DNA from: Chloroflexota bacterium
Lineage (GTDB): Bacteria > Chloroflexota > Anaerolineae > Promineifilales > Promineifilaceae
Direction of reading: 5' to 3'
Assembly: GCA_020628815.1 (NCBI GenBank)
Contig: JAHDEN010000007.1
Coordinates: 1-64,000, forward strand
DNA: 64,000 nt
Every line of letters starts with the position of its first letter. Position 1 is the stretch's first letter. The notes under the pieces are model-generated. The model did no database searches. It saw nothing but the letters and a program-made list of their open reading frames with translations, and had not been told where the DNA came from. Positions 25,804 through 51,204 of the stretch are shown here, piece by piece. The position numbers and the translations under genes were made by a program.

Positions 25804-25812
25804 ACTTGTTCC

Positions 25813-25847
25813 GTGGTGCGTGGCGCGTGGCGCGTGGCGCGTAAGAT
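25813..25847. repeat. Heptad repeat island (GTGGTGC GTGGCGC GTGGCGC GTGGCGC GTAAGAT)
   Basis: Direct reading of five consecutive 7-nt units between thiP-like and thiQ-like genes. Confidence 0.85.
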
Positions 25848-30535: not shown

Positions 30536-31588
30536 ATGTTTCAAATTTCTGACATCGACCACCTGCTCCCCTTTATCCTCAAGCCAGACAACATTGCTCG
30601 GTTTGAGGTTGCTAACGGCCGGCCGCAAGTTGTAATCGGCAACCGAAGTAAATACCCGCTGGAGCAAAGTTTTGTAACCTGTGACAGCGTTGAAGCGGTT
30701 GCCCAAGCGATTGAGCAGATGGTGACGCAGGGGGCGGGTCCGTGGCAAGCGGCCGTTTGCGCCCTTGCGCTGGCGGGGCATGAAACCAGCCATCTTGCCA
30801 AAAATGAAGCGTGGCCCCATTTACAAAAAGCCCAAGCCAGATTGGTTGCCACCCGGCCGACCAACACCGCTTTGGCCCGCCGACTTGAATTAGCGATGGG
30901 TGCGGCCGAACAAGCCCTAAAAACCGACAGACCGCTTGATCAAGCCATCACCCAATGGCTGGCTGAAACCCGCCGCCAAATTTATGCAGATTACGCCAAG
31001 CGCGGCCGATTAGGGGCCGACTTAATCGAAGATGGGGATGGGATTTTGACGATGTGTTTTGCTGAAACATCGTTTATTTTGACTCTGGCGATGGCTTGGG
31101 CAGATGGGAAACAGATACACGTTTACGTGCCTGAAACCCGACCGTTTTTGCAAGGTGCCAAACTCACCGCCCCCTCAATCCATGAATTGGGAATTCCGGT
31201 GACGCTCATGGGGGACAACATGGCGTCAGGGCTAATGGCCGATGGTAAAATCCAAAAATACTTTACAGCGGCCGACCTTATCACAGTTGACGGCCATGTG
31301 GTCAACAAAGTTGGTACGTATCAGCATGCCATTGCTGCGCGGTATCACAACATTCCGTTCTACGCATTTGCTTGGGGATTGGATCGAACACGGCCGGACC
31401 GAGCTTCGATTGAGATCGAAATGCGCAATCCTGAAGAGATTAAAACGTTTAAAAACACACCAACCACTCACCCAGATATCAACGCCATCTACCCCGCTTT
31501 TGACATCACCCCACCCGACCTAGTGACCGGGATTGTGACGAAGAACGGGGTTTATCGGCCAGAAGAGTTTGGGGAGAGTTTTCAGTGA
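30536..31588 (+). CDS. Divergent MtnA/eIF-2B alpha-type sugar-phosphate isomerase
   Basis: RPTNTALARRLELAM, GDGILTMCFAETSF, ITVDGHVVNKVGTYQHAIAARYHNIPFY follow the MtnA order but deviate from canonical motifs. Confidence 0.75.
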   Translation: MFQISDIDHLLPFILKPDNIARFEVANGRPQVVIGNRSKYPLEQSFVTCDSVEAVAQAIEQMVTQGAGPWQAAVCALALAGHETSHLAKNEAWPHLQKAQARLVATRPTNTALARRLELAMGAAEQALKTDRPLDQAITQWLAETRRQIYADYAKRGRLGADLIEDGDGILTMCFAETSFILTLAMAWADGKQIHVYVPETRPFLQGAKLTAPSIHELGIPVTLMGDNMASGLMADGKIQKYFTAADLITVDGHVVNKVGTYQHAIAARYHNIPFYAFAWGLDRTRPDRASIEIEMRNPEEIKTFKNTPTTHPDINAIYPAFDITPPDLVTGIVTKNGVYRPEEFGESFQ

Positions 31589-31653
31589 TCAGTTGTCAGT
31601 TCAATCTCGCGGAGCCTAACTGATAACTAACAACTCAAAACTGACAACTTACA
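31583..31653. repeat. Heptad repeat island with inverted arms
   Basis: CAGTGAT CAGTTGT CAGTTCA / ACTGATA ACTAACA ACTCAAA ACTGACA ACTTACA. Confidence 0.9.
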
Positions 31654-33220: not shown

Positions 33221-34351
33221 ATGCCAAAAACCGTCTATTCGATTGATGAAGCTCGAGACGTTGCCCAGCAACGATTGCCCAAAATTATCTTTGACTTCAT
33301 CGACGGTGCGGCCGGAAATGAGTCTACCAAAGCGCGTAATCGGGAAGCCCTAGAACAAATCTATCTCCAGCCCAGAGTATTAATAAACGTAGATCAACGC
33401 AGCCTAAAAACCAGCTTTTTGGGGCGTGAATGGGGGCTGCCTTTTGGCATTGCGCCGATGGGGCTGTGCAATTTGGCCTGGCCTCAAACGGACCAACTGT
33501 TTGCTCAAGCGGCCGTCAAATACAATATCCCGGCCGCACTTTCTACCGCAGGGTCTACTTCAATCGAAGATTTCGGATCGATTGCCAAACAAAACGGCTG
33601 GTTTCAGCTATATGTGGGTGGTGCGGAAGAACAGGCGATGGGTTTGGTGACACGTGCGGAAGAGGCCGGGTACGACACCTTGATTTTTACAGTTGATGTA
33701 CCACAAGTGGCTCCCCGTCGACGCGACATGCGCAACCAGTTTGGCATGCCGTTTAAAATCGGCCCCAAGCAATTCTGGGACTTTGCGACCCATCCTCGTT
33801 GGTCGTTTGCATCTCTGTTTGCAGGTGCGCCTCGCTTGGCCAATTTCCCAAATTCAAACTCTAAGCAAGATGGCTGGGATCGGAACAGCGGCCGGGGCAA
33901 AATCGATTTTGATTTTCTCGATCGCCTCAGAGCCAAGTGGCCCCATAAACTGATCGTCAAAGGGGTAACGTTTGGGGAAGATGCCCAGCGGATTCAAGCG
34001 GCCGGAGCTGACGCAATTTGGGTCTCTAACCATGGGGGGCGCCAATTAGCGAGCGCCCCTCCGGCAATCAGCTTTTTGCCAAAAGTACGTTCAGCCGTTG
34101 GGCCTGACTATCCGCTCATGTTCGACAGCGGCGTACGCAATGGGGACAGCGTGGTAAAAGCTTTGGCGCTGGGAGCTGATTTTGTAATGCTCGGCCGGCC
34201 GTTTTTGTGGGGGACTGCGGCCGGAGGCGAAGCGGGGCTAAATAATGTCATTGACTTGCTCGCCAACGAGATTAGCGTGACAATGGCACAGGTGGGGCGG
34301 GTTTGCATACATGAAATTGATCAAGATGTTTTAGTAAACAGTAGTCAGTAA
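33221..34351 (+). CDS. FMN-dependent alpha-hydroxy-acid oxidizing protein (lactate dehydrogenase/oxidase-like)
   Basis: FDFIDGAAGNE, GIAPMGLCNLAWP, VSNHGGRQL; likely start MPKTVYSIDEARDVA. Confidence 0.9.
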   Translation: MPKTVYSIDEARDVAQQRLPKIIFDFIDGAAGNESTKARNREALEQIYLQPRVLINVDQRSLKTSFLGREWGLPFGIAPMGLCNLAWPQTDQLFAQAAVKYNIPAALSTAGSTSIEDFGSIAKQNGWFQLYVGGAEEQAMGLVTRAEEAGYDTLIFTVDVPQVAPRRRDMRNQFGMPFKIGPKQFWDFATHPRWSFASLFAGAPRLANFPNSNSKQDGWDRNSGRGKIDFDFLDRLRAKWPHKLIVKGVTFGEDAQRIQAAGADAIWVSNHGGRQLASAPPAISFLPKVRSAVGPDYPLMFDSGVRNGDSVVKALALGADFVMLGRPFLWGTAAGGEAGLNNVIDLLANEISVTMAQVGRVCIHEIDQDVLVNSSQ

Positions 34352-34409
34352 ACAGTAGTCAGTTTCCAGTAAATCACCTTCTGATCACTGGCTACCGATC
34401 ACTGTTTAC
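34333..34409. repeat. Heptad repeat island with inverted arms
   Basis: AGTAAAC AGTAGTC AGTAAAC AGTAGTC AGTTTCC AGTAAAT caccttc TGATCAC TGGCTAC CGATCAC TGTTTAC. Confidence 0.92.
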
Positions 34410-34430
34410 TGAAAAAAACGGAGTTTCGCC

Positions 34431-36152
34431 ATGAAGATACGCGGTGGTGCACTGCTCGCACGAGCATTTCAGGAAAAGGGAGTAGACCAGGTTTTTACAT
34501 TGAGCGGTGGGTTTTGCAATCCGGCATTGGAAGGGTTTATGCAGTGCGAAATTCCGGTCATCAACTCACCCCATGAGCAAGTTGCAGGCCATTTGGCTGA
34601 CGGGTTCACCCGGATCAATCGCAAACCGGCCGTCTGCCTCGTTGGCCCTGAAGGGTTTGCTAACGCCATCCCAGCGATGATGGAAGCATGGGGCGAACGC
34701 TCACCAGTGATATTTGTAACCGGCTCGAGCACGCTTAAGCGCCAAGGGGCGGGCGGTTTTAAAGAGATAGACGATGTTGCAATTGCGGCCCCGCTCACAA
34801 AATATAGTGTGCAAATTACCCATGGGGAACGCATCCCCGAATTTGTAGATCGAGCGTGGAAAATCGCAACCAGCGGCTATCCCGGCCCGGTCCATTTAAG
34901 CCTGCCGGTTGACCTGATGTTTAGCTCGTTTGAGGCGGACAGCGGTCATGATGAACGGCCGTTTGATCGAGCCAGCCGACACATTCCACGCGCATGGCCC
35001 AATCCGGCCGATTTAAACGTGGTGCTCGATGCGTTAGGCAAGGCGCAACGGCCGATTATCATCGGCGGTCACGGGGTTTGGTGGGCGCACGCTGAGAAAA
35101 AGCTGGAAGAAGTTGGCCGGAAATTAGGCATCCCGATTTTTAACGTGCCTTATCATCAAAAGTTGTTGGGGGAAGAGAACGAAGCGTACATGGGATTGGC
35201 CGATTTCCATCAATATCACCCATCAAAAGATGCGATTCATGAGAGCGACGTGGCGGTACTAATCGGCGGCCGTTTAGACAATCAGCTTCAGTTTGGCAAC
35301 CCACACTTTTTCCCCAGCACAACCAAGCTCATTTGCGTCAATGGATCACACGAAGAGCTGCAATTTAATCGCTCGGCCGATTTTGGCTTGCTAAGCGATC
35401 CGACCCCGTTTTTAGACGCGCTGCTGAACCTGCACGCCTCTGGCAATTGGCACCTTGCGCGAGATTGGTTTGATCTGCAGCGGGAACGGCGCGGCGCCTG
35501 GGTTGAAAAGATGGTTAATGACATTCCAAGCCGAGAAGAAACAGGTGGCAGGCTCCATCCTTTAGAGTTGGCCCTTGGGGTGCAAGAGGCGATGGGAGAT
35601 GATGATTGGCTGGTGATTGACGGGGGAAACACCCATTTCTGGTCGGAAATCGCCATCAACATCGCCGGTTACAAAGGGCAAAAATTGGCAAACATTTTGC
35701 ACCCCGGCACCTTTAGCATGTTGGGGGTCGGGGTTTCGTTTGGCACCGCCGCCAAGTTATCAAACCCCAACAGCAACGTCGTGGTGGTTAGCGGGGATGG
35801 GGCATTTCTGTCAGGTGGCTTGAGCATTGAAGCGGCCTTCCAAGAAAAACTGCCGATTACGGTTGTGATCGACAATAACGGCGGGCTAGACTGCATCTCG
35901 CAACAGCAAGAGCGGATGTTTGCCAACGGCACCCATTTTGCCACCGACTTTCGCGACATTCCGTTCCACGGCATGTTTGAAGGATTGGGCGGTTACGGGG
36001 AGCTGGTAGAAGATCCGGCCGACCTGATTCCGGCCGTCAAACGAGCGATGGCGAGCGGCAAAACCGCCTGTGTGAATGTCAAAACCAAGGGGTATATCAG
36101 CCCAATTGTTTTGGCAACAACGAGCAAACGTGACAAAGCATCAATAGAATAA
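34431..36152 (+). CDS. Thiamine-diphosphate-dependent enzyme (acetolactate synthase-like)
   Basis: TLSGGFCNPALEGF, EQVAGHLADGFTRI, SGDGAFLSGGLSIEAAFQEKLPITVVIDNN (ThDP motif). Confidence 0.9.
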   Translation: MKIRGGALLARAFQEKGVDQVFTLSGGFCNPALEGFMQCEIPVINSPHEQVAGHLADGFTRINRKPAVCLVGPEGFANAIPAMMEAWGERSPVIFVTGSSTLKRQGAGGFKEIDDVAIAAPLTKYSVQITHGERIPEFVDRAWKIATSGYPGPVHLSLPVDLMFSSFEADSGHDERPFDRASRHIPRAWPNPADLNVVLDALGKAQRPIIIGGHGVWWAHAEKKLEEVGRKLGIPIFNVPYHQKLLGEENEAYMGLADFHQYHPSKDAIHESDVAVLIGGRLDNQLQFGNPHFFPSTTKLICVNGSHEELQFNRSADFGLLSDPTPFLDALLNLHASGNWHLARDWFDLQRERRGAWVEKMVNDIPSREETGGRLHPLELALGVQEAMGDDDWLVIDGGNTHFWSEIAINIAGYKGQKLANILHPGTFSMLGVGVSFGTAAKLSNPNSNVVVVSGDGAFLSGGLSIEAAFQEKLPITVVIDNNGGLDCISQQQERMFANGTHFATDFRDIPFHGMFEGLGGYGELVEDPADLIPAVKRAMASGKTACVNVKTKGYISPIVLATTSKRDKASIE

Positions 36153-36203
36153 TTAATAAGGAATAATTAATAAGGAATATTTAATTTTGAATGGTTAATG
36201 GCC
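36148..36203. repeat. Left heptad array of the four-helix-bundle gene element
   Basis: AATAATT AATAAGG AATAATT AATAAGG AATATTT AATTTTG AATGGTT AATGGCC. Confidence 0.92.
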
Positions 36204-36235
36204 CGTGGACCATTTATCGTTTTTAAAGGGAAGAC

Positions 36236-36610
36236 ATGGCAAAAGGGGATGATATTGAGGAGCGGCTGGTAGATTTTGCTGTACGTATCATTAATGTGTG
36301 TGATGCGCTACCTACCGAGAAGATCAGCGCGAAACACATTCAGCGTCAATTGGTTAGAAGCGGGACGTCACCTGCACCTAATTATGGTGAGGCACGTAGT
36401 GCTGAAAGCGGTAAAGACTTCGTACATAAGCTAAAAATCGCACTTAAGGAGTTGAATGAAACTCGAATATGGTTAAAAATCATCATACGGTCAAGATTGA
36501 TCAAAGAATCAATTTTGCTTGACCTGCTTGATGAGTGCGACCAACTTTGCCGAATTTTAGGCGCTAGTATCCGCACTTCACAAACTAAGTCTGCGGAGGA
36601 CAAAAATTAA
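36236..36610 (+). CDS. Four helix bundle protein (S23/IVS-encoded protein family)
   Basis: DFAVRIINVCDALP...ISAKHIQRQLVRSGTSPAPNYGEARSAESGKDFVHKLKIALKELNETRIWLKII, typical of the TIGR02436 family. Confidence 0.9.
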   Translation: MAKGDDIEERLVDFAVRIINVCDALPTEKISAKHIQRQLVRSGTSPAPNYGEARSAESGKDFVHKLKIALKELNETRIWLKIIIRSRLIKESILLDLLDECDQLCRILGASIRTSQTKSAEDKN

Positions 36611-36643
36611 CCATTCCGTATTTATTATTCCTTATTAATTATT
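36602..36643. repeat. Right (inverted) heptad array of the four-helix-bundle gene element
   Basis: Reverse strand: AATAATT AATAAGG AATAATA AATACGG AATGGTT AATTTTT. Confidence 0.92.
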
Positions 36644-36653
36644 ATCGGATCTC

Positions 36654-37790
36654 ATGCAAAACTTTATTCTCAAAAATATCAATCGCTTTATCAATAGTGC
36701 CGACGCTCAAGCGGCCGCTCAAACAGTTGAAAGCCTGAAAAACGATTTTCCAGATGCAACGGCTGATGAGATTGTCGATATGCTTATTCGACGCAAATGT
36801 CAGCAAACAGGCGCGGTTGGCATGGTGACCTCAGGCGCGTCATTGATTCCGGGAATCGGAACGGTCGTGTCGATGACGTTCGGGGTTGCGGCCGACATCG
36901 GGATGACGTTTAAGTTGCAAGCAGAGCTGGTTTTGGAAATTGCGGCCGCCTACAACTACCCACTCAAAGAAGCGGACAAACAAAAGATTATTTTAGCCAT
37001 CACCGGCTTAAGTGCTGGAACCGAAGCAGCTCTGCAAAAAACGGGGCAAATTGTGGCAACCAAAGCCTCGGCTCAGTTGGCTGAAAAAGCGGCGGCCAAA
37101 GCGATCCCTTATTTGGGTGTCGCGGCTTCGGCCGGTACAAACTCAGTCTCAACTTATGTGATCGGCCGACGAGCGCAAGCCTATTTCAGCCTTGGACCCG
37201 ATCACATGGAAACGTGGAAAGACAGCCTGCGCGCCGTCACCGGCATCGACGAGCAAGAAATTGCGCAGTGGCTTAGCACTTCAACCGAATCGTCATGGAA
37301 CATGCTCAAGCAAGGCAGCAAAAACACGGCCGATTCAGTCATTGTTGCCGGTAAAACGACCGGAACCGCCATAGTTGTCTACACGCAAAAAGCTTCTGGG
37401 GCCATCACCCGTTCAAGTTCAAAAGTGATGGGAGCCATCGCAAGTGGCGTTTCCCGCATCAACCCGTTCAGCCGAGACGAAAAAGAAGAAGGCGACGACG
37501 AAACTAGACCAGACGAGCAAATGGTTATCGGCTATGTGGGCGCAGGTGATTCGATCAGTGACGCAGAAAGCTCTGATCCAAGCTACTTTCAAACGGTAAA
37601 AGGGGCTCTGGCTTGGCGGCCGGAAAGCTGGAAGAAAGAAGCAGATGAGCCGGAGCCAAACATTCTTGATTTGTCTGATTTATCATCTGATTTGGTTGTG
37701 ATGGCTGGTGAGAACTTAGCGGATGAGCAGGCTGAGCAAGCAAGATTTTTCGGCCGATTGCGCGAGCGTTTCGGCCGAAATAAAAAATAG
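36654..37790 (+). CDS. EcsC-like conserved protein
   Basis: GMVTSGASLIPGIGTVVSMTFGVAADIGMTFKLQAELVLEIAAAY, EcsC-like glycine-rich helices. Confidence 0.65.
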   Translation: MQNFILKNINRFINSADAQAAAQTVESLKNDFPDATADEIVDMLIRRKCQQTGAVGMVTSGASLIPGIGTVVSMTFGVAADIGMTFKLQAELVLEIAAAYNYPLKEADKQKIILAITGLSAGTEAALQKTGQIVATKASAQLAEKAAAKAIPYLGVAASAGTNSVSTYVIGRRAQAYFSLGPDHMETWKDSLRAVTGIDEQEIAQWLSTSTESSWNMLKQGSKNTADSVIVAGKTTGTAIVVYTQKASGAITRSSSKVMGAIASGVSRINPFSRDEKEEGDDETRPDEQMVIGYVGAGDSISDAESSDPSYFQTVKGALAWRPESWKKEADEPEPNILDLSDLSSDLVVMAGENLADEQAEQARFFGRLRERFGRNKK

Positions 37791-40863: not shown

Positions 40864-41076
40864 AGTATGAAGTCAAAAGTATAAAGTGAGAAGTTTTAAT
40901 ACCATTAGGTCTTACGCAACAAGGTTTGGTAAACGCTGGCTGAGCTTGTCGAAGCCGAAGTTTGCCAAGCCGTTGCCCTTCGACAAGCTCAGGGCGCGTA
41001 AGTCCTAACCATCAAAACAAACTTCACTTTACACCCCGCACTTCATACTTAACACTTCTCACTTTATACTTTAATC
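40864..41076. repeat. Composite heptad island carrying a MITE/REP-like palindrome
   Basis: Left arm AGTATGA AGTCAAA AGTATAA AGTGAGA AGTTTTA (40864-40898); right arm 41021-41076 ACTTCAC TTTACAC CCCGCAC TTCATAC TTAACAC TTCTCAC TTTATAC TTTAATC. Confidence 0.9.
40905..41008. mobile_element. MITE-like element: TIR TTAGGTCTTACGC ... GCGTAAGTCCTAA with internal CTGAGCTTGTCGAAG/CTTCGACAAGCTCAG
   Basis: 12/13 matching terminal inverted repeats flanking an internal inverted repeat. Confidence 0.65.
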
Positions 41077-51125: not shown

Positions 51126-51204
51126 TCAGCTATCAGTATTCAGTTTTCAGTTAGGCTGCTAAAAGTCAAGCTGAAAGCTGACGGCTAATAGCTAAAAGCC
51201 AAAA
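51126..51204. repeat. Heptad repeat island with inverted arms
   Basis: TCAGCTA TCAGTAT TCAGTTT TCAGTTA ... AAGTCAA GCTGAAA GCTGACG GCTAATA GCTAAAA GCCAAAA, ending at ATG 51205. Confidence 0.9.

Follow-up and report, generated by a model that had tools for sequence, protein, structure and literature searches.

A small gene of the S23 family, enclosed by two inverted arrays of 7-nt repeats, lies between two protein genes in the first 64,000 nt of Chloroflexota contig JAHDEN010000007.1 (hereafter the window, meaning this whole stretch), and the question raised by the locus is whether gene and arrays together form a unit that spreads. S23 proteins (TIGR02436) are widespread and crystal structures exist for them, with no function assigned; they are often annotated simply as 'four helix bundle protein'. 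The analysis described here points, with moderate confidence, to a minimal mobile unit whose S23 protein recognizes, and probably helps to spread, hairpins defined by the length of their repeat unit and not by its sequence.

The unit occupies 496 bp between a thiamine diphosphate (ThDP) enzyme gene and an EcsC/DUF697-like gene (Table 1). Its left heptads are, in order, AATAATT AATAAGG AATAATT AATAAGG AATATTT AATTTTG AATGGTT AATGGCC, and its right heptads, starting at 36643 and given in minus-strand sense, are AATAATT AATAAGG AATAATA AATACGG AATGGTT AATTTTT. The outermost 20 nt of both arrays are identical, and a repeat search returned 41-nt arms with 90% complementarity. The stop codon of the ThDP gene (36150-36152) falls within the first left heptad, that of the S23 gene (36608-36610) overlaps the innermost right heptad, and the gap between the right array and the downstream gene is 10 nt. 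Folding of positions 36140-36660 as RNA gave a z-score of -5.3 relative to shuffled sequences, and when 375-bp placements were drawn at random in the window, 14 of 20,000 reached the flank complementarity score of 27; some of these may overlap the S23 locus itself. The unit lies outside any rRNA gene, its flanks being protein genes; profile searches matched the boxed protein to S23 and found no transposase domain in the unit. An earlier note on this DNA had described the eight left and six inverted right heptads with identical 20-nt ends, the S23 gene, and the ThDP stop codon inside the first heptad. A recount reproduced the arrays exactly, and gene and stop codon were found where the note had placed them. 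Of the two neighbors that it named, the ThDP gene was confirmed, whereas the downstream gene matched EcsC/DUF697 only below the curated cut-offs.

Assignment of the window gene product to the TIGR02436/S23 four-helix-bundle family is secure. The protein matches TIGR02436 with an E-value of 3e-26 (91.6 bits against a curated cut-off of 24) and PF05635 with an E-value of 7e-18. Its AlphaFold2 model has a pLDDT of 93, and the solved folds nearest to the predicted structure are 2RLD and 2GSC, followed by Avd (4DWL); the TM-scores with the Avd proteins 4DWL and 8UB7 range from 0.65 to 0.73. The branch of the family to which the window protein belongs has SGTSPAPNYGEA where the SVPSNIAEG motif is usual, and boxes surround genes of both branches (alignment A1).

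The generality of the box was evaluated in two samples: one comprised 58 S23 genes of related genomes together with at most 9 kb of flanking DNA per side, and the other an additional 80 loci drawn from named genomes in many phyla, isolates included. Each gene was scored for local complementarity between the 150 nt preceding it and the 150 nt following it. Score thresholds were set after the first loci had been seen and were identical for all controls; the other-phyla set was fetched later, by a search seeded with one canonical S23 protein, which favors the canonical branch over that of the window. Open-frame starts were assigned mechanically, and most of the genomes are metagenome assemblies. 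Among the related genomes, 64% of the 58 S23 genes reached a score of at least 18, as compared with 2% of 763 other open frames at the same loci, and at a score of at least 14 the corresponding fractions were 74% and 5%. In the other phyla, complementary flanks were present around 68% of 78 S23 genes versus 4% of controls, and 62% of the pooled 175 S23 boxes scored at least 18. None of 30 genes of PemK, a small, mobile family used as a control, was boxed. Boxed S23 genes are also present in isolates (Sporomusa L196/L205, Chthoniobacter L251, Sphingobacterium L235, and Empedobacter L229, where L numbers denote loci), and S23 genes occur in unrelated gene neighborhoods throughout. The genome that contains the window has a second S23 gene (L045), which is likewise boxed, in this case between two directly repeated copies of an entire hairpin.

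The arrays themselves are specific to their loci. Matched arms, which are intergenic, show identities of 0.54, 0.50, and 0.47 at lags of 7, 14, and 21 nt, the pattern of tandem 7-nt units. Within one genome, a left arm reaches a match score of at least 18 with the right arm of its own box in 58% of cases and with that of a different box in 5%. This low similarity between loci rules out arms that act as conserved fixed termini, and a single dispersed, conserved palindrome of the REPIN kind was not found. Variation among units is mirrored in the opposite arm, with an identity of 0.825 in register versus 0.739 when shifted by one unit. Unit length and complementarity are the features that are conserved.

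Unit length is 7 nt in most boxes and 8 nt in about one quarter. On an S23 protein tree (a quick build of 125 columns), the unit-length label changes 13 times, compared with 24.3 changes when the labels are shuffled (0 of 500 shuffles as low) and 17.8 when they are shuffled within phyla (1 of 500). Among Chloroflexota-type relatives, to which 40 more related-genome loci were added, 7 changes were counted versus 12.0 with shuffled labels (0 of 1000) and 10.96 with labels shuffled only within each genome (1 of 1000); both the 7- and 8-nt types are present in eight genomes. The background arrays in the GTDB loci are divided in the same way, with period-7 and period-8 arrays at a ratio of 27:4 near 7-type S23 genes and 7:20 near 8-type genes, L211 alone giving many of the 8-nt background arrays. 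Unit length thus tracks S23 phylogeny, even inside single genomes. No other evidence obtained speaks as strongly for a link between S23 protein and array.

Orthologous junctions within the same genus were found without the S23 gene, and most of these carry an empty hairpin of 7-nt units. At the ThDP-EcsC junction of G002, a genome from the window's genus, no S23 gene is present and a short heptad run shares the innermost left-arm units of the window. Filled and empty junctions have the same units in L045 and its empty counterpart L139, and in L072 and L141. L086, which contains S23, corresponds to three empty hairpins with three different unit sets (L142, L143, and L144), L087 corresponds to an empty hairpin in a sister genome (L145), and L052 corresponds both to a junction with a hairpin (L147) and to one with no hairpin (L149). 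With regard to a target-site duplication, filled and empty sites differ in units, which precludes base-by-base alignment of the junctions, and L045 is flanked by its two direct hairpin copies. The presence or absence of S23 at the same junction is demonstrated. Among non-syntenic S23 pairs with 70-80% protein identity, 47% have arm sequence in common, as opposed to 1-2% of pairs below 55% identity. Because arm sharing falls with protein identity, the arms seem to travel with the S23 gene and then to change.

S23 is also associated with array density across genomes. Random contigs of S23 genomes contained 55 period-7 arrays in 362 kb, whereas those of S23-less genomes contained 4 in 417 kb, the S23-less sample being small and consisting, besides four same-family genomes, of more distant and mostly smaller genomes. 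Away from S23 loci, array density was 15.2 per 100 kb in genomes with S23 and 1.0 per 100 kb in genomes without it. S23 copy number correlated with array density (Spearman 0.78 across 29 genomes; 0.76 when the comparison was confined to the family), and in a joint rank regression that included S23, reverse transcriptase, Y1 transposase, GxxExxY, and genome size, S23 was the sole significant predictor (t 3.9). The spacing of inverted pairs is bimodal, with 79 tight pairs (at most 120 nt between arms) and 47 pairs at 301-600 nt; an S23 gene lies inside 42 of these 47, at loci that were mostly chosen for their S23 gene. The earlier note had proposed a mobile unit and had suggested comparing S23 genes with other genes and with syntenic relatives. 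Both comparisons came out in favor of the proposal, the first through the box enrichment and the PemK control, the second through the same-genus junctions that lack S23 and often retain an empty hairpin. Its further idea that empty hairpins are cargo-less versions of the unit finds support in the bimodal spacing and in the near absence of arrays from S23-less genomes, and the empty heptad hairpins that it reported elsewhere in the window are present at three sites (Table 1).

Table 1. Coordinates of the S23 unit and of other heptad arrays in the window.
Feature	Position	Strand	Remarks
Whole unit	36148-36643	+	As RNA, long stem from the paired arms with the S23 gene as loop
Left array, eight 7-nt units, core AATnnnn	36148-36203	+	Contains ThDP stop codon
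Leader, left array to S23 start codon	36204-36235	+	Purine-rich ribosome-binding-like stretch aaagggaag, by eye
S23/TIGR02436/PF05635 four-helix-bundle gene, 124 aa	36236-36610	+	Profiles, AlphaFold2, structure search
Right array with six 7-nt units in inverted orientation, complement of the outer left array	36602-36643	-	Overlaps S23 stop codon
Empty hairpin, 7-nt units CAGTTnT	31577-31649		
Empty hairpin, 7-nt units AGTnnnn, at FMN-dehydrogenase/ThDP junction	34329-34415		
Inverted heptad arms (40864-40899 and 41025-41073), ~125 nt between them, no S23 gene	40864-41073		
Empty imperfect hairpin, 7-nt units	51128-51193		

In the window as a whole, a repeat period of 7 (plus its multiple 14) is alone clearly enriched. 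At the flavin mononucleotide (FMN)-dehydrogenase/ThDP junction, the hairpins of the window and of G002 (L136) differ in their units and have the AGT core in common; both start at the last codons of the gene, as if the units had been copied from the local gene end. The inverted arms around 41 kb enclose a palindromic CTGAGCTTGTCGAAGCC...CTTCGACAAGCTCAG insert (40901-41024) in the place of S23. A near-perfect CGTGGCG heptad array is located at 25807-25842, and no inverted partner for it was found. In another genome, G003 (L046-L052), several S23 leaders, the segments that separate left array and start codon, have by eye a CGTTTATTA-like stretch in common; it may be a promoter carried along with the S23 gene. 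The boxed genes at L110:699-1091, L108:362-727, and L045:8914-9273 are bracketed by two complete hairpins that are direct copies of each other, in place of a single arm per side. Non-S23 genes that seemed to lie in boxes were ordinary genes between two adjacent hairpins, with the exception of GxxExxY (TIGR04256). Genes of this second small family are also found within inverted arrays of their own kind, with units of ~9-11 nt of the CACAGAGA/GCGGAGA type (L064:5104-5487, L080:2610-2999, and L105-L134); of 30 such genes, 80% reach a score of 14 and 63% a score of 18. Some small GIY-YIG genes (L358, L365, L341, L344, and L346) stand beside other dispersed repeats (GTCATTCCCGCGAAGGCGGGAATCC; GTCATTGCGAG...GCAATC).

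The mobile-unit reading would work as follows. The 496-bp stretch would be one copy of the unit, a long stem of tandem 7-nt units (8-nt units in other lineages) that carries one S23 gene in its loop. The S23 protein, a putative nucleic-acid-binding ring by analogy with its solved relatives and with Avd, would recognize the unit-spaced array as a hairpin of either single-stranded DNA or RNA and would help to lay down or copy new hairpins at gene ends. Stop codons would be suitable sites because insertion there does little harm. Cutting and synthesis would be left to host enzymes, and the gene-less hairpins would be non-autonomous derivatives. Replication slippage and quasi-palindrome correction may then alter the units at each locus while the arms stay complementary; the mirrored drift of the arms would be explained by host slippage together with fold-back template switching. 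Binding by S23, the direction of movement, the role of the protein in spreading, and an RNA or single-stranded DNA intermediate are what we infer from these patterns. If S23 does spread the arrays, the unit would be a mobile element with ends recognized by spacing instead of sequence, and we know of no mobile family that does this. The lineage-specific 7- or 8-nt array would give a first handle on the binding target of S23 and a first testable role for the family, and it could account at once for three puzzles, namely the S23 proteins, the intervening sequences of rRNA, and the scattered bacterial heptamer hairpins.

Several points weigh against this reading. About one quarter of S23 genes are without a clear box at a score of 14, and the S23-less sample behind the density comparison has the limits of size and relatedness given above. 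One genome, G032 (83% complete), has a hairpin and no detected S23. At the orthologous junctions, gain of S23 is not distinguishable from loss, and transposition was not observed in the data analyzed. To our knowledge, no catalytic domain has been recognized in S23 to date. Finally, units differ wholly between genomes at several orthologous junctions (L086 versus L142-L144), so in situ rebuilding of hairpins, with S23 staying where it is, may occur as well.

Complete differences of this kind between sister genomes are what would be seen if the hairpins arose from host processes alone (slippage with fold-back template switching) and served S23 units only as loops in which to insert or survive, with no role for the protein. 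In addition, intervening sequences in 23S rRNA take the place of tetraloops in pre-existing rRNA helices (PMC4990558), and heptamer repeats are known in genomes where S23 went undiscussed (PMC4679880). We consider a purely host-driven origin unlikely, since unit length tracks the S23 lineage inside single genomes and the background arrays match it, arrays are nearly absent from S23-less relatives, and the effect in the joint regression is specific to S23 copy number.

The placement of the arrays could instead indicate regulation. The distance between the stop codon of the preceding gene and the left arm has a median of 0 nt, the right arm ends a median of 14 nt before the next start codon, and the arrays are mostly co-directional with both neighbors (47/58 and 49/58). 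Arms on the 5' side of S23 are rich in G and those on the 3' side in C (purine content 0.645 versus 0.382), and the S23 fold is related to that of Avd. The arrays would then be RNA-binding sites through which S23 controls the decay or translation of flanking mRNAs, the boxed S23 gene controlling itself and the empty hairpins forming its regulon. As the whole explanation this is quite improbable, because both the units and the presence of S23 change rapidly at orthologous junctions and because S23 genes are found in unrelated neighborhoods throughout. These points leave room for a mobile unit that also regulates.

Counts of reverse transcriptase and of Y1 transposase, each taken alone, correlate with array density (0.55 and 0.42), as would be expected if one of these enzymes (a reverse transcriptase or a RAYT/Y1 transposase) spread the hairpins and S23 were cargo. 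Such an engine is very improbable. Reverse transcriptase was rejected as a necessary partner on the evidence of G027, a genome of 3 contigs (99% complete), which has no RVT_1 match yet contains four S23 genes and ~25 period-7 arrays per 100 kb; in the window's own genome, RVT_1 matches lie on contigs C162 and C327 and none on the window's contig, C319. Y1 transposases, which were likewise rejected as the engine, are present in array-poor genomes such as G043 and G048, and neither enzyme is significant beside S23. Chance or assembly artefact, suggested by the majority of metagenome-assembled genomes, is refuted by the control rates of 2-9% and by the same boxes in isolates.

A broader proposal is tentative, and our confidence in it falls a little short of even: S23 could be the trans-acting machinery of bacteria-wide self-spreading elements, the ends of which would be a protein-set 7- or 8-nt unit and not a sequence, with the rRNA intervening sequences, familiar for decades, as the same element elsewhere. 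GxxExxY nucleases may run a parallel system based on units of 9-11 nt.

Known systems resemble the S23 unit in part. Small repeats embedded in cyanobacterial heptamer arrays were reportedly described by Elhai and colleagues in 2008. Cyanobacterial STRR and the TAACTGA repeats of Beggiatoaceae are likewise intergenic tandem 7-nt units, but they have been described chiefly as direct repeats, fixed in sequence and with a regulatory role proposed for them, and no link to S23 was found there (PMC4679880). REPIN/RAYT systems also consist of short, dispersed intergenic hairpins whose abundance is tied to a small trans-acting gene and whose empty copies outnumber the gene-bearing ones; however, the RAYT partner is a transposase of the HUH (Y1) type and the REP repeats keep a conserved sequence, whereas the S23 unit conserves unit length only. 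Unlike an insertion sequence or a miniature inverted-repeat transposable element (MITE), the S23 unit has no transposase domain and its arms vary by locus. The fold likeness to Avd recalls diversity-generating retroelements, but no reverse transcriptase, template, or variable repeat adjoins the S23 unit.

The closest parallel is provided by the 23S rRNA intervening sequences of Coxiella, Leptospira, and Brucella, in which an S23 open reading frame sits in the loop of a terminal inverted-repeat stem, as here; these are sporadic and have been described as selfish (PMC4990558). They differ in that they lie within the helices of rRNA and RNase III cuts them out, whereas the present units sit between protein genes. 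The Coxiella element, closed by a 28-bp stem, has GACAGAT heptamers directly upstream of its S23 frame (PMC4990558). Because the S23 gene and stem are in common and these heptamers are present, the 23S rRNA intervening sequence probably represents this same element, placed in a helix of rRNA. Apart from the Coxiella heptamers, no report of S23 genes inside heptamer arrays was found, nor any description of arrays as a general rule, of the 7/8 unit length, or of a link to protein lineage, in a literature search that left subscription journals and preprints uncovered. We set the unit apart as a new kind because it lacks a defining feature of each known kind examined (intervening sequences, REPIN/RAYT systems, insertion sequences and MITEs, and diversity-generating retroelements) and because no description was found of ends that are set by spacing, free of sequence, and linked to a protein lineage. 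On a more conservative view, it could be grouped with the S23-type intervening sequences as a new variant that lies between genes.
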